From the NCBI GenBank assembly GCA_023205875.1, contig CP060758.1:62001-126000 (forward strand): 64,000 nt of DNA, in the 5' to 3' direction. The position numbers were made by a program, and so were the translations under genes. Below, in pieces: positions 848-6,683 of this stretch. Every line of letters starts with the position of its first letter. Within the stretch, counting starts at the first letter, position 1. Under the pieces are notes generated by a model, which had not been told where the DNA came from, searched no databases, and was given only the letters and a program-made list of their open reading frames with translations. This DNA comes from Chloropicon primus (taxonomy: Eukaryota; Chlorophyta; Chloropicophyceae; Chloropicales; Chloropicaceae).

Positions 848-1022
848 CTCTCCGACTTCTGGCGGCGGCGGGACGGCGGGACACCTCAACCTCGAGGTCG
901 AGACACCTCCGCCACAGCCTCGGCGTCGCTCTCGTCCTCCACAGTCCGCTGCTGCTCTCGCGCTCCACAGTCCGCTGGTGCTCTCGCGCTCCTCGGCGCT
1001 CCGGCTCCATCACACAGCGCTG

Positions 1023-1028
1023 TATAAA
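1023..1028 (+). promoter_or_regulatory. TATA box upstream of the permuted tRNA
   Basis: TATAAA lies 39 bases before the 3' tRNA half, where an upstream TATA of a Pol III gene could sit. Its role is inferred. It may instead serve the PTEN 5' region, but it reads in the tRNA direction. Confidence 0.4.
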
Positions 1029-1066
1029 GACGAAAATGTGATATGATTCATGTGTACCTAATGGAC

Positions 1067-1246
1067 ATCTAAAGGTCGTGTGTTCGATCCACACTCATCG
1101 CAGTAAAGTCAGCATTTACTCCGCGCGAAACCTACTCACCGCGTGGCACTTGAGATGAACCAAACCCTAATCCAGACTTCCCTCTTACTCTGCCTCGTCG
1201 TACCGTTCGGCGATGATAGCTCAGTTGGGAGAGCGTTAGACTGAAG
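1067..1246 (+). tRNA. circularly permuted tRNA-Phe (GAA)
   Basis: The 3' half (1067-1102) precedes the 5' half (1210-1246), separated by 107 bases. Placed in mature order they give a 73-nt tRNA: acceptor GCGATGA/TCATCGC pairs 7 of 7, D stem GCTC/GAGC, anticodon stem TTAGA/TCTAA, loop CTGAAGA with anticodon GAA, T stem GTGTG/CACAC around TTCGATC, discriminator A. The A box (TAGCTCAGTTGG) and B box (GTTCGATCC) are intact but in reversed order. The break lies between positions 37 and 38, the canonical intron site. Bases flanking the break pair across the gap (GTGT/ACAC, ACC/GGT, TAA/TTA), forming the bulge-helix-bulge expected for splicing-endonuclease cutting. CCA is not encoded. No T4 terminator is seen in the next ~300 bases, which is odd for Pol III. 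Permuted tRNAs are known from Cyanidioschyzon, prasinophytes and chlorarachniophyte nucleomorphs; they mature through a circular intermediate. Confidence 0.93.
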
Positions 1247-1544
1247 TTACGGTGCACACCCCAGGAGGAGGCGGCGAAACTACAGTCGCCTCTCCTCTTG
1301 CTCCGCGAGATAAGGGTTCGGTGAGAGACGTTAAATATACGAGCACAATAAGATCACAATAAGATCGTAACGGCGGAGGACGGCGAGGAGGACGAGAAGA
1401 CCGCGACCAGAGAGAGAGCGATGAGTTACCTCCTGGAATACTACAGCCGCGGGTTGCCGACGAAGAAGAGGAGACTGACGAATACTGGGACGTCATGTGA
1501 AGAAGGGGCTGGTGGCGCCACCCCGGCCGCGGTTCTCCAGGGGG

Positions 1545-2585
1545 ATGGCGCCCAAGGATGGCGGGTGGCGCCCAAGGATTGTGGTGCCAATGTCTCTGTC
1601 TTCACCCACTTGCAGGGCAGCGGGCAGCCGTGCGGCAAGCCTGGACACCAACGCTTGCACAGTGGCCATGGCGACCTCCGCGGGACCTCATAGGGAGCGG
1701 GAGATGGCCGCCATCGAGGAGAACGCGGATCCGACGACGCTTCTCAATGCGGATGGACTTCTTGCCTCTCTTCGCTTCGCAGACGAATTAGCTGGCGCGC
1801 CGCCCACCCTTGCACGCGAGGGTACACGGGCGGAGCGAACTCGCGAGCCTGAGGAGCTGACCCTGGTCCGCGTGGTCCGAGGCCGTGGCGGAGTCCACCT
1901 GGAGCGCGTTGCGGGCTTGAAAGAACTGACCCACTGCATCGTCTTCCTCCGCGAGTCCCTTGCGCGGGAGGGGCTTGGGAACAAGCTCGCTGGTCAGGCG
2001 GCCACGATCTCAAGCGCGTTGCTCGGCAAAGATCTTCCTAAACAGGTGAAAGCATTTCGTTTCGTGGAGCTTGGGACCGCCAGCCGCTCGCGATGCCTCA
2101 AGGACCGCAAAGTTCTTACGAAAGCTCTTGCCCTTGCGAAGGAGAAGGGCGAGCCTTGCGCGCTTCTTGTAGCTGCCTTGTCGCGATTGTCGAGACGGTC
2201 ACAAGCTGAAGAGGACCTCGACTACCTTGCTGAGCGCGCAGGGCAGGCCTCTATACTGGCGTGTATCCCGACGTCCCATGCAGCAGCTTTGATTGGGGAG
2301 GAAAAGAAAGAGGAGCTCAAAAAGTACATGAGCAAGGCTGCAAGCACCTCGGACGGGCACGCCGTGTACTCGGCGTCGCACTGCATGCTCAAGTCCGGCG
2401 CCACCCGTTGTTCTGTAGCATCGGGCCAACACACTTCTGAGGAACTTTGTCTCCTCGTCGAACACGTCGAGCACGTCCTGAGGCACAAGCTGGAGAATCT
2501 GGAGAAGCCGGGGGAGCAGAAGCACGGGAAACCCCTTCTCCTCGTATCTTCTTGGAAAGCGCTTTGTGGAGCAACGGGCGAGTGA
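1545..2585 (+). CDS. serine-recombinase-like protein, first module (possibly broken or spliced to the next ORF)
   Basis: An ATG at 1545 (others at 1665 and 1704) opens a frame to 2585. The centre resembles the resolvase/invertase catalytic domain: CIVFLRESL at the place of the usual YxRxS strand with the nucleophilic Ser, then FRFVELGTASRSR, DRKVLTKALALAKEKG, and CALLVAALSRLSRR, which fits the common 'R..L.KAL..A....LVV..LDRLSR' run. After this a second, weaker copy of the same pattern starts and continues in the next frame from about 2554, so the stop at 2585 is either a frameshift in a decaying gene or hides an unrecognised intron. GC content is visibly lower than in neighbouring genes. The family call rests on motif resemblance only. 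No terminal inverted repeats or target duplications were recognised. Confidence 0.4.
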   Translation: MAPKDGGWRPRIVVPMSLSSPTCRAAGSRAASLDTNACTVAMATSAGPHREREMAAIEENADPTTLLNADGLLASLRFADELAGAPPTLAREGTRAERTREPEELTLVRVVRGRGGVHLERVAGLKELTHCIVFLRESLAREGLGNKLAGQAATISSALLGKDLPKQVKAFRFVELGTASRSRCLKDRKVLTKALALAKEKGEPCALLVAALSRLSRRSQAEEDLDYLAERAGQASILACIPTSHAAALIGEEKKEELKKYMSKAASTSDGHAVYSASHCMLKSGATRCSVASGQHTSEELCLLVEHVEHVLRHKLENLEKPGEQKHGKPLLLVSSWKALCGATGE

Positions 2586-3858
2586 TCTCGTCCGCGCATG
2601 GAAGAACCAACCCACAGTTCGTGTGCTCGTCGCTGCTTGTTCCATCACGGAAGCGAACTACGACATCATTCTTCGCGAGGAGCACATGGAGTTCCTGGAG
2701 ACCTGCAGGCAATACTGCCACGTTCACTCCGTGAGGGACGAGTTGTTTGAAAACCGTGATGGACACGGCTTGGATGAAGACGCATTGAGCAGAGTCTTTG
2801 AGTACTTTGCGGATGCACTAAAGGGAGAACATGTCGATGTCGTGTTTGAGAATGAATGTTTCCCAGAAACCGCGATCTCTGTGACTCAAAAAGATTTCTT
2901 CAAATGCTCCTGCGCTGATAAATGCTCTCGCAAGTCGTCCAGGACAACAGGCACCGCGAACACCGCTCCAGCACATACTCGATGCCTTTGTGCTTGTGAC
3001 ATGTGCAAGAGGAGTCGTCCTTGCATTCTGGTGGACAGCGACGCCGAGGACGGCGGGGAGAGGGAGAGAGAGCTTCGGAAATTTGATGCCGCTGCATGTC
3101 CCTGTGAACGTTGCAGCAGCAGCCCCTTGAGCACTGGTACGACAAGGAAGACACAGGCCAAGACCAACACGAAAGGGAAGAGGAAGACCAAAGCAAGGGA
3201 GCCGATGAAGGAGTTTCCTCGACTTCCTACTACAGACGGTACTCAAACCCTGCGCTGCATCTGCTGTGATGCTTTTCGTCGCCCTGAGTGCCCCTTGGTC
3301 AAAACAGGAGCTCTGACACCGGTTCCGGGGGAGGAACGTGATCGAGGTGGGCACAATCCCACTTGCCTCCTCTCGAACTGGTGCTGGTACTGCCACCGCT
3401 TCATCTTCAAAAGTGAGTTTAACCACTGGTGCTCGTTCGACTGCTTCTCGAAAGCCACGAGGGTCGTGGACAAGGGGAAGCTTTGGGACAGGGGCATGGA
3501 AATTGGCATCGAACTGAAGAACACGATTGGTTTTTGGTTTTGTGATCCGTGTACAAAGAAATCGGAGTCCGAGAAAACCTTGATCCCAATCAAGAGTTCA
3601 TATGGCTTGAAGTGCTGGAGATGCAAATATGGACATGGCAAAATCGGCAAGGGGTGCGAGGAGAACGCAGGAGGAGGCGGCGTGAACATGCAGCGCGCAA
3701 ACATGCAGCGCGCAAAAATTGGTGAGAACAGAAAGGCCAAAGAGGTAGTGATCCGGCATCCAATGCTCGTCAAAATGATACTCATGATGCTTGAGAACAA
3801 TAGCGAGGTGAATACGGAGCAAGCGAAACCAGGGGAGGAGTCGGAGAAGGAGATCTAA
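2566..3858 (+). CDS. Cys-rich protein continuing the recombinase-like locus
   Basis: This frame has no obvious own start; it is open from about 2548. It begins KRFVEQRASDLVRAW and VRVLVAACSITEA, which line up with FRFVELG...KALALA and CALLVAALSRLSR of the upstream ORF, so it looks like a second degenerate copy of the recombinase fold. Then follow several Cys clusters (CSCADKC, CLCACDMC, CPCERC, CICCDAF, CWYCHRF with HWCSFDC, CDPCTKK, CWRCKYGHG) separated by a Lys-rich linker, suggesting several zinc-binding units. Together with the ORF before it this would be a two-module, zinc-rich DNA-binding protein. No close family is recognised. It could be a pseudogene; GC content is lower than in nearby genes. 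Confidence 0.35.
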   Translation: MEQRASDLVRAWKNQPTVRVLVAACSITEANYDIILREEHMEFLETCRQYCHVHSVRDELFENRDGHGLDEDALSRVFEYFADALKGEHVDVVFENECFPETAISVTQKDFFKCSCADKCSRKSSRTTGTANTAPAHTRCLCACDMCKRSRPCILVDSDAEDGGERERELRKFDAAACPCERCSSSPLSTGTTRKTQAKTNTKGKRKTKAREPMKEFPRLPTTDGTQTLRCICCDAFRRPECPLVKTGALTPVPGEERDRGGHNPTCLLSNWCWYCHRFIFKSEFNHWCSFDCFSKATRVVDKGKLWDRGMEIGIELKNTIGFWFCDPCTKKSESEKTLIPIKSSYGLKCWRCKYGHGKIGKGCEENAGGGGVNMQRANMQRAKIGENRKAKEVVIRHPMLVKMILMMLENNSEVNTEQAKPGEESEKEI

Positions 3859-3895
3859 AACTCAGTGGGCTCGAAGCCAGGGCCATTGGATATCT

Positions 3896-4507: not shown

Positions 4508-4859
4508 CACCAACACCAACACGAGCAACACCAACAACACAAGAGTCTCGTTCCTTACGATCGAGTTGTTCTTCGAGTCGCTCTCGGCGTTGCGTTGCCA
4601 AAGGTCCCGCCTTTGCACACCACACCATAGTGTTCTATTCGTCTATGTGTGTTTGTGATCCTCAACAACAACAACGAGCCAAAGGAGGATGAGGCTCAGC
4701 AGCGAGAACAAGAAGAACAAGACGACGACGACGAAGAAGAAGACGAGCAGCAGCAGCAGCACGAGCTGGTGAGGAAGGACGCGGGAACTGCATTTCTCAT
4801 TTCTCAGAAGAATCTGCTGCCTCGACCACCTCAAGCCACAGGTGGTCATCATCATCATC
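4243..4859. other. non-coding gap with microsatellites before the TTLL gene
   Basis: This stretch holds a CT-rich microsatellite (4361-4436), AACACC-type repeats near 4496-4545 and purine-rich GAAGAA/CAGCAG runs near 4690-4770. No gene could be supported. The last part is the presumed 5' leader of the TTLL gene. Confidence 0.5.
4361..4436. repeat. CTCCT/CTCTC microsatellite
   Basis: Irregular tandem CTCCTCTC units of pyrimidines on the plus strand. It sits in the gap after the recombinase-like locus. Confidence 0.85.
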
Positions 4860-6683
4860 ATGGCCCTGACGTGCGCCACGACCGTCCTGCGGCCCCCATC
4901 CACCTGCTACGACGGCGACGACTGCGACGAGGAGCTCTCCCTCAGCAGCACGTTCTCCTCCTCCTCCCAGGAGTCCGTGTCCCAGTCCTTCAGCGAGGAG
5001 CCCCCGCTGCCGTCCAGGGACAGCAGCTGCTCCTCGCTGAGGTCCCTTTCCCTGTCAGTCTCGTCGTCGGAACCCAGCAGCAGCAACAACAGCAACAACA
5101 GCAGCACGCAGTACCTCGTGGAGCGCTCCAAGTTCGTGGGGACGCCCCCCACGGTGTTCTTCGGGACGGACGCCAACCCCCCCAGCGAGGAGGCCGCGGC
5201 ACTGCCTCAGGTCCTCCCCAAGGTGTTCCTCAAGTACACCGGGGTGAACTGCAACGTGGTCAAGCAAGCCTTCGCGAGGGCGGGGTTCAGGAACTGCCCC
5301 AAGGACAAGGACCACTTCAACGCGGTGTGGGCCTCGCCCATGAAGGTGAACCACTTCCAAAGCTTCAAGGCGTACCAGAAGGTGAACCACTTTCCGGGGA
5401 CGTGGGAGCTGGGGAGGAAGGACAGGCTGTACCGGAACATCTCCAAGATGAGGCGGCGGCACGGGGACAAGTACGACATCCTTCCCTTTGCGTTCGAGCT
5501 CCCCGGGGACTACGACGAGTTCCTCAAGGACTGGGAGAGGAGGCCCAACCAGTGGTACATCATCAAGCCCAGGTCGTCCTCCAGGGGCAGGGGGATCAAG
5601 CTGCTGAAGAAGCTGAGCGACGTGGAGAAGAAGAAGTCCGGCCCGAGGGAGTGCATCGTCCAGAGGTACATCAAGGACCCCCTGCTGATCGACGGGTACA
5701 AGTTCGACATGAGGGTGTACGTCCTGGTGACGTGCTTCGACCCCCTGAGGGTGTACGTCGCGAGGGAGGGCCTCGCGAGGTTCGCCACGGAGCCCTACTC
5801 GAGCGACTCGAGCAAGATGAAGTCCAGGAGGTGCCACCTGACGAACGTGAGCATCAACAGCAAGAGCAAGAAGTTCGTGGTGAACCAGGACGCGGCCAAG
5901 GACGGGGAGGGGAGCAAGTGGACGCTCTCCGCCCTGCGGAGGCACCTCGAGTCCAACGAGGAGTTCGGGGTGACCTCGTGGGAGGAGCAGATCTGGTCCC
6001 AGGTCAAGGACCTCGTCATCAAGGCGGTGATCTCCGTGGACGCCAAGGTCAACACCCTGGTCAAGATGCACGTGCCGGGGAACAACTGCTTCGAGCTGTA
6101 CGGCGCGGACGTAATGCTGGACTCCAAGCTCAAGGCCTGGCTCATCGAGTTCAACACCGGGCCCGCCCTGAACACCCCGACGCCCCTGGACAAGGCCGTC
6201 AAGTCCCGGGTGGTGACCGACATGTTCCACATCGTGGGCTTCGCCCCGGTGGACAAGAAGAAGCACGAGAGGGGCGTCCAGGCGTCCAGGCAGAACAGGC
6301 TGACCGGCATCGGGCTGCAGAAAATGAGCGCGACTCACAGGGACACGAACCAGGCGCAGACCATGGTCTTCGACGGGGTGAAGGAGAGCCACCTGCCCGA
6401 CGTGGTGAGGGAGACCGAGGCCGAGCACAGGAGGAGCGTCGACAGGGTCTTCGAGCGGGCCTTCCCCTGCTCGGCGAGACCCTCCGCGTACCACAGCCTC
6501 TTCGAGGTCCAGAGGTACAACAACATCGTGGTCAAGAGGTGGCTCATCTCCGAGAGGAGGAAGAGGATCCGGCTCGAGAGGGAGAGGGCGGAGCAGGAGG
6601 AGGAGGCGAAGAGGACAATGATGGAGTCGCCCAAGGTGGACGACGCCTTGCAAGCCACCGCCGCCGCCGTCGCGGCCACCTGA
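4860..6683 (+). CDS. TTLL: tubulin--tyrosine ligase-like polyglutamylase (TTLL4/5 type)
   Basis: The ATG at 4860 (MALTCATTV) gives 607 residues. The first ~110 are Ser-rich and low complexity. The TTL domain follows with the family's ATP-grasp landmarks: DRLYRNISKMRRRHG, WYIIKPRSSSRGRGI (nucleotide-binding Lys, from about residue 234), CIVQRYIKDPLLIDGYKFD, RVYVLVTCFDPLRVY, CHLTNVSIN, and CFELYGADVMLDSKLKAWL followed by EFNTGPAL with the metal-binding Glu. The spacing follows animal TTLL4 closely (LWRNLSRMQARHG, PPASARGIGI, LISGSKFDLRIYV, CHELFGFDIMLD). These enzymes add glutamates to tubulin tails, mainly on axonemes and basal bodies. The C-terminal ~110 residues include a charged helix. No intron. 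The long opposite and alternate frames over this region are shadows. Confidence 0.92.
   Translation: MALTCATTVLRPPSTCYDGDDCDEELSLSSTFSSSSQESVSQSFSEEPPLPSRDSSCSSLRSLSLSVSSSEPSSSNNSNNSSTQYLVERSKFVGTPPTVFFGTDANPPSEEAAALPQVLPKVFLKYTGVNCNVVKQAFARAGFRNCPKDKDHFNAVWASPMKVNHFQSFKAYQKVNHFPGTWELGRKDRLYRNISKMRRRHGDKYDILPFAFELPGDYDEFLKDWERRPNQWYIIKPRSSSRGRGIKLLKKLSDVEKKKSGPRECIVQRYIKDPLLIDGYKFDMRVYVLVTCFDPLRVYVAREGLARFATEPYSSDSSKMKSRRCHLTNVSINSKSKKFVVNQDAAKDGEGSKWTLSALRRHLESNEEFGVTSWEEQIWSQVKDLVIKAVISVDAKVNTLVKMHVPGNNCFELYGADVMLDSKLKAWLIEFNTGPALNTPTPLDKAVKSRVVTDMFHIVGFAPVDKKKHERGVQASRQNRLTGIGLQKMSATHRDTNQAQTMVFDGVKESHLPDVVRETEAEHRRSVDRVFERAFPCSARPSAYHSLFEVQRYNNIVVKRWLISERRKRIRLERERAEQEEEAKRTMMESPKVDDALQATAAAVAAT

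Follow-up and report, generated by a model that had tools for sequence, protein, structure and literature searches.

Our analysis points, with a probability of about 0.93, to a nuclear gene for tRNA-Phe(GAA) in the tiny marine green alga Chloropicon primus that is circularly permuted and functional. The gene lies in a stretch of 64,000 nucleotides of contig CP060758.1 (assembly GCA_023205875.1, positions 62,001 to 126,000), which is called the window here. From its sequence, this locus very probably gives rise to a circular RNA, which is cut open elsewhere to give a working tRNA-Phe.

On the + strand of the window, the 3' half of the tRNA (1067-1102) precedes the 5' half (1210-1246), exactly as given in a preliminary description of this DNA, which also had the 107-nt spacer right. 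When the 5' half, the 3' half and CCA were joined in this order, ARAGORN called tRNA-Phe(gaa) of 73 nt plus CCA with all stems paired. The joined sequence also bore out the break at the canonical 37/38 position, which is the type II break, a known junction for circularly permuted tRNA genes. In the unrearranged window, neither ARAGORN nor Rfam reported any tRNA, as is expected because the gene is permuted. A custom scanner was employed to search for a T arm, an acceptor stem across the spacer, a D arm and an anticodon stem. With spacers of up to 250 nt, its single match in the window was the Phe gene (score 21), and 20 dinucleotide shuffles of the window gave no match above the threshold of 11.5 (spacers up to 150 nt). 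A permuted-tRNA covariance model did not recover the gene whole but in two partial matches of 21.9 and 19.5 bits; the length of the spacer is the apparent cause. The locus is not an ordinary intron-containing gene, since the 5' half does not lie upstream of the 3' half. A structured RNA in the spacer was rejected as well, since it folds no better than shuffles (z -0.33). The sequence of the locus is best read as a nuclear tRNA-Phe(GAA) gene that is permuted at 37/38. The features are listed in Table 1.

Table 1. Features of the tRNA-Phe locus, the permuted tRNA genes and the repeat copies of C. primus (positions without a prefix, or marked "window", are those of the window).
Feature	Position	Strand	Remarks
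External promoter-like element	1020..1039	+	TATA block CTGTATAAA at 1020-1028; CGAAAATGT block at 1031-1039
Leader arm of the junction helix	1051..1062	+	Cofolds; set test over seven permuted genes
3' half of tRNA-Phe(GAA), positions 38-73	1067..1102	+	36 nt; CCA not encoded
Spacer between the acceptor ends	1103..1209	+	107 nt; without TTTT
5' half of tRNA-Phe(GAA), positions 1-37, anticodon GAA	1210..1246	+	37 nt
Trailer arm pairing with the leader	1247..1258	+	Cofolds
Stable hairpin	1262..1300	+	-23.5 kcal/mol; z -5.0; 0/200 shuffles as stable
TTCGGTGAGAGACGTTA, core of the 3' element common to tRNA/SRP RNA genes	1317..1333	+	Genome pattern search
Repeat copy behind tRNA-Phe	1375..3884	+	Weak Resolvase match; about 437 bp shorter than some copies
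Other near-complete repeat copies	C6:1019072, C15:496709, C5:1003631, C15:467712
Other near-complete repeat copies	C3:1403598, C9:636875, C16:69210, C2:314977
Repeat, tenth place	C17:302998		First 1.2 kb (first half); the rest are fragments
Permuted Phe(GAA)	window 1067..1246	+	Spacer 107
Permuted Arg(ACG)	C1:1319750-1319865	-	Spacer 44
Permuted Glu(TTC)	C14:98385-98475	+	Spacer 17
Permuted Ser(CGA)	C9:641421-641514	-	Spacer 13
Permuted Ser(TGA)	C3:655664-655756	-	Spacer 11
Permuted Ala(CGC)	C6:7025-7112	-	Spacer 15
Permuted Glu(CTC), copy one	C5:490605-490724	-	Spacer 46
Permuted Glu(CTC), copy two	C5:493078-493197	+	Spacer 46

The genome (17,584,162 bases in 20 contigs) was searched for an ordinary tRNA-Phe gene. 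The Phe 5' half occurs once genome-wide at up to 3 mismatches, so that the identical normal gene that would speak against the permuted one was not found. The pattern GAGCNNNNGACTGAAR has 11 genomic sites, and ARAGORN, to which the Phe locus itself is invisible, detected an ordinary tRNA at none of them. Among the best 63 of 285 candidates of an Rfam tRNA search there were 33 matches, none of which was tRNA-Phe. No ordinary tRNA-Phe gene was found in these searches, and its absence is not proven.

ARAGORN placed introns in 20 of the 33 ordinary tRNA genes. With the 37/38 rule, one of these (L027) was read as Leu(TAA) in place of its Ser(tga) label, and L017, L020, L021 and L022 were relabelled in the same way. 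At L051:1306-1398, visual inspection gave a tRNA-Lys(TTT) with 78 nt inserted into the D loop behind position 15; the insert starts with GT and ends with AG, the anticodon loop also holds an insert, and the 78 nt are possibly an ectopic tRNA intron. At L009 (C4:1124897-1127803), four tRNA-Pro(TGG) genes stand in tandem, about 940-950 bp apart.

The Phe gene is one of eight permuted tRNA genes in the genome, which cover seven anticodons on six contigs and are all broken at 37/38; the search was built for this type, and eight is a lower bound. Arg(ACG) and Glu(TTC) were located by BLAST with the sequence 3' of the Phe gene (15 places), and Ser(CGA), Ser(TGA), Ala(CGC) and both Glu(CTC) copies by pattern searches for 5' halves. 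ARAGORN returned the stated anticodon for all eight joined genes. Ser(TGA) has one T-stem mismatch and required a relaxed version of the scanner. Across 604,800 bases, with each strand counted separately, this relaxed version made 13 matches, and all of them were the eight genes, in overlapping loci. One Glu 5'-half pattern had three sites at up to 3 mismatches, and all three were permuted. Five of the seven further genes scored 38.9-60.5 bits with a permuted-tRNA covariance model built without them; Glu(CTC) differs little from Glu(TTC), a gene that the model did contain.

The searches did not locate several anticodons, including that of Trp. A tRNA-Trp pattern gave 8 matches versus 19 for its control, and none of the three inspected was a tRNA. 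The B-box pattern GGTTCRANYCC was discarded as a finder, as it did not discriminate (266 matches versus 338 for the backward control); 100 of its matches were listed and 30 loci scanned, and the one permuted gene among them was the already-known Arg(ACG). The A-box pattern gave 16 matches versus 7 for the control, four of which were known tRNAs. Four further places were inspected and turned out to be the permuted Ala(CGC), two members of an Ala(AGC) array and one non-tRNA. In this array (C2:1153700-1157973), a 5' half of the Ala(AGC) type occurs six times in tandem; two of the six were inspected, and ARAGORN calls one of these.

In permuted genes the A and B boxes are inverted in order, and transcription driven by an upstream TATA has been proposed (PMC3978253). 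An upstream TATAAA had been pointed out at the Phe locus, and it is present at 1023-1028, so that a TATA-like sequence precedes this permuted gene too. An EM procedure trained on the regions upstream of 35 ordinary tRNA genes, with Phe left out, gave a promoter motif of two blocks, gTATATATA and caAAAATGT, separated by 2-8 nt. The held-out Phe gene scored 21.7 bits, a value that one out of 1500 random window stretches of 130 nt attained (99.9th percentile 14.3); the window holds the Phe promoter, and this one stretch may be the Phe promoter itself. Scoring of permuted genes took in Phe, Arg(ACG) and Glu(TTC). Arg(ACG) scored 20.4 bits (also 1 of 1500 random window stretches as high) and Glu(TTC) 8.2 bits (p 0.037), and the SRP RNA gene reached 10.7 bits (p 0.013). 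In a leave-one-out comparison, 30 of the 35 ordinary genes exceeded the 95th percentile of the null and 24 the 99th. By its sequence, the Phe gene carries the promoter-like TATA plus AAAATGT element that is common to ordinary tRNA genes.

The junction of a permuted tRNA is expected to be presented by pairing of leader and trailer, and in green algal permuted genes the bulge-helix-bulge is relaxed (PMC3978253). In the Phe cofold, the outer helix is formed by TTA(C)GGTGCACA with TGTGTACC-TAAT and has one bulged C. Near the splice sites C32 is able to pair with leader base -3, and in the lowest-energy cofold 33-34 are instead paired with 38 and -1. Compared with shuffles, the Phe duplex was borderline (p 0.042, 0.055 and 0.080 for 16, 20 and 25 nt), and it was weaker against random window stretches (0.046, 0.13 and 0.28). 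The duplexes of Arg(ACG) (p 0.24-0.59 versus shuffles; 0.077-0.375 versus random window stretches) and Glu(TTC) (0.24-0.28 and 0.19-0.475) were not significant alone.

The genes were also tested as a set, with seven genes (Glu(CTC) counted once) and 20,000 random leader assignments. The register ran from 32:-3 to 35:-6 and from +2:-7 to +6:-11; it was fixed after the cofolds of Phe, Arg and Glu(TTC) had been viewed, and the cofold test is independent of it. In the fixed register, native leaders formed a mean of 5.2 of 9 pairs versus 3.3 for swapped leaders. The fraction of random assignments as good as the native one was 0.0003 in the register and 0.005 by cofold energy. Pairing of the bulge-helix-bulge type is found at the level of the set, with Phe alone borderline. 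The bulge-helix-bulge proposed earlier for this gene stands as far as the leader-trailer pairing goes, but in a relaxed form with one bulged C. Two loci in the genome also match PF01974, the family of tRNA-splicing endonucleases, above its cut-off of 27 (70.1 and 53.9 bits).

The same junction pairing would fit equally well if the two halves were transcribed separately and joined in trans, as a split tRNA whose halves are adjacent by chance, and a spacer of 107 nt is long. However, the Phe spacer contains no TTTT, both halves are on the same strand, and the sister spacers of 11-46 nt leave little room for a second promoter. We give trans joining a slim chance compared with a single permuted transcript.

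The 3' end of the permuted Phe gene lacks a T-run. TTTT is absent from the spacer and from the downstream sequence until 3273 (about 2 kb). A downstream T stretch was observed in C. merolae, where it was not given as a criterion (PMC3978253). In C. primus, Phe and Arg(ACG) are the two permuted genes without a T-run, and the other six have one. The lack of a nearby T4 terminator had been called unusual, but it is common in this genome. Merging four repeated copies among the 33 genes called by ARAGORN leaves 29 distinct ordinary genes; 13 of these have no TTTT in the first 60 nt, and the TTTT-less end was rejected as the sign of a dead gene for this reason.

In place of a T stretch, the Phe gene is followed by a hairpin and by a 3' element common to ordinary genes. 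Sequence similar to the hairpin stands behind other tRNA genes, and we propose that the hairpin may be a stand-in for the T-run terminator. The core of the element, TTCGGTGAGAGACGTTA, has 34 genomic sites at up to 2 mismatches versus 2 for a backward control. At up to 1 mismatch, all 22 sites are behind tRNA/SRP loci, namely 20 tRNA genes (with the permuted Phe, Arg(ACG) and Glu(TTC) among them), an SRP RNA gene (125.3 bits) and a tRNA-Met 3' fragment. Two of the sites at 2 mismatches also follow such loci, which makes 24 of 34, and at seven sites with 2 mismatches that were inspected there was no RNA gene. The element is present in 10 of the 13 TTTT-less ordinary genes (eight by regex, two by site listing); in the remaining three, namely Pro, Cys and one Met copy of two, a T-run follows by about +105. 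It often stands where the T-run is missing and is a candidate terminator, integration target or element end; transcription may end there. The Met fragment lies around position 1341 of L056 (C9 near 636.5 kb). It is the 3' half of a tRNA-Met(CAT) without an adjoining 5' half, is followed by the 3' element and the repeat described below, and is probably a duplicated fragment.

A dead, rearranged remnant of tRNA-Phe, with the true gene missed elsewhere, is less probable still than trans joining. It gains some room from the ordinary-gene search, which scored the best 63 of 285 tRNA candidates, but all stems of the Phe locus are intact, the promoter motif and the 3' element are present, there is no second 5' half at up to 3 mismatches, and seven sister genes share the design.

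Behind the permuted Phe gene stands a repeat of about 2.5 kb. It is nearly whole in nine places including the window (four in one piece, five in two pieces), and the other near-whole copies are 89-98% identical to the window copy. When coordinates were compared, 28 of the 30 BLAST matches of the repeat followed a tRNA/SRP gene or the Met fragment on the same strand, at a distance of no more than about 3.5 kb. C1:1317285 (opposite strand) and C20:415197 (a 30-base match) depart from this rule. A frame of a fuller copy (L113) matches the serine-recombinase family Resolvase (PF00239) at 29.6 bits (cut-off 23.3), and the window copy and another copy stay below this cut-off at 17.9 and 17.7 bits. 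Searches with the frames of the repeat found no match in NCBIfam and no relevant one among solved structures (best E 0.13). The repeat is likely a eukaryotic mobile element that targets tRNA genes and settles behind Pol III genes. Fanzor2 transposons have been reported in C. primus (PMC10711439). Downstream of the repeat, the window encodes a tubulin-tyrosine ligase family protein (4842-6683, +; PF03133, E 4.5e-84).

That a repeat found in many places stands behind the locus might point to an assembly artefact that swapped the halves, but the repeat starts outside the tRNA halves, and random misassembly does not give eight permuted genes that share a 37/38 break and are spread over six contigs, which leaves this the least probable explanation of all.

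For the permuted Phe gene, we propose the following pathway, in which transcription, termination, circle formation, processing and charging are all predicted from sequence features. The upstream TATA plus AAAATGT promoter would give one RNA of leader, 3' half, 107-nt spacer, 5' half and trailer, which would end near the hairpin or 3' element behind the gene. Pairing of leader and trailer would present both 37/38 splice sites, and the tRNA-splicing endonuclease would cut both. A ligase would then join 37 to 38, leaving a circle in which the acceptor ends flank the looped-out spacer. The spacer would be excised by RNase P and tRNase Z, and addition of CCA would give tRNA-Phe. Such a pathway has been described for permuted tRNAs, and circular intermediates have been seen in red and green algae (PMC3978253). 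A more far-reaching suggestion is tentative, and we consider it rather doubtful: C. primus might decode Phe and Glu wholly via permuted genes, so that circles are obligatory, and the serine-recombinase element behind Pol III genes might have replaced the lost T-run terminator.

Permuted tRNA genes are already known, and C. primus adds members from a green algal class that is new for them. In PMC3978253, 34 permuted genes of seven species are tabled, with spacers of 1-74 nt. The host groups named in the preliminary description are represented in this table by Cyanidioschyzon, by Ostreococcus and Micromonas, and by the Bigelowiella nucleomorph. The C. primus genes resemble the type II genes of Ostreococcus, Micromonas and the Bigelowiella nucleomorph, which have the 3' half first, the 37/38 break and junction pairing (Maruyama et al. 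2010, as tabled in PMC3978253). Ser(CGA) is permuted in 4 of 4 Ostreococcus/Micromonas and Ser(TGA) in 3 of 4, and both are also permuted in C. primus, whereas its Phe, Glu(TTC), Glu(CTC), Arg(ACG) and Ala(CGC) are absent from the 34-gene table (PMC3978253). Ancestral permuted Ser genes have been argued for (PMC4494063). Eight permuted genes in C. primus compare with 3-6 per tabled green alga (PMC3978253). The Phe spacer had been called unusual, and its 107 nt exceed the 1-74 nt of all 34 tabled genes (PMC3978253), but the arrangement itself recurs in the seven other genes.

Like Cyanidioschyzon merolae (Soma et al. 2007, via PMC3978253), C. primus has an upstream TATA-like sequence, no encoded CCA and intron-bearing tRNA genes in the same genome. 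The breaks of C. merolae are at 20/21, 37/38, 50/51 and 59/60 (PMC3978253), whereas all eight in C. primus are at 37/38, the type for which the search was built. In Auxenochlorella UTEX 250-A, also a green alga, tRNAscan-SE gave an incomplete set, and permuted genes were detected afterwards; unlike C. primus it is a trebouxiophyte, and permuted tRNA-Phe is neither shown nor excluded there in the account given (PMC12636532/PMC12633428). For C. primus RCC138, 46 tRNA genes were reported with tRNAscan-SE 2.0.4 (PMC12301720). The word "permuted" is absent from the main texts of that paper and of the 2019 C. primus genome paper, and our literature search on permuted tRNA in green algae and tRNAPhe found no report from Chloropicon.

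These results extend permuted tRNA genes to the Chloropicophyceae. Other green algae were known to have permuted Ser genes, and tRNA-Phe, Glu, Arg(ACG) and Ala(CGC) now join them. They suggest that counts based on tRNAscan-SE only, such as the 46 of C. primus, may miss essential genes in such algae. With eight such genes in one small genome, some of them with the promoter and 3' elements of ordinary genes, questions on permuted genes can be tested in one organism: which promoter is used, whether the circle is obligatory, and what spacer length is permitted.
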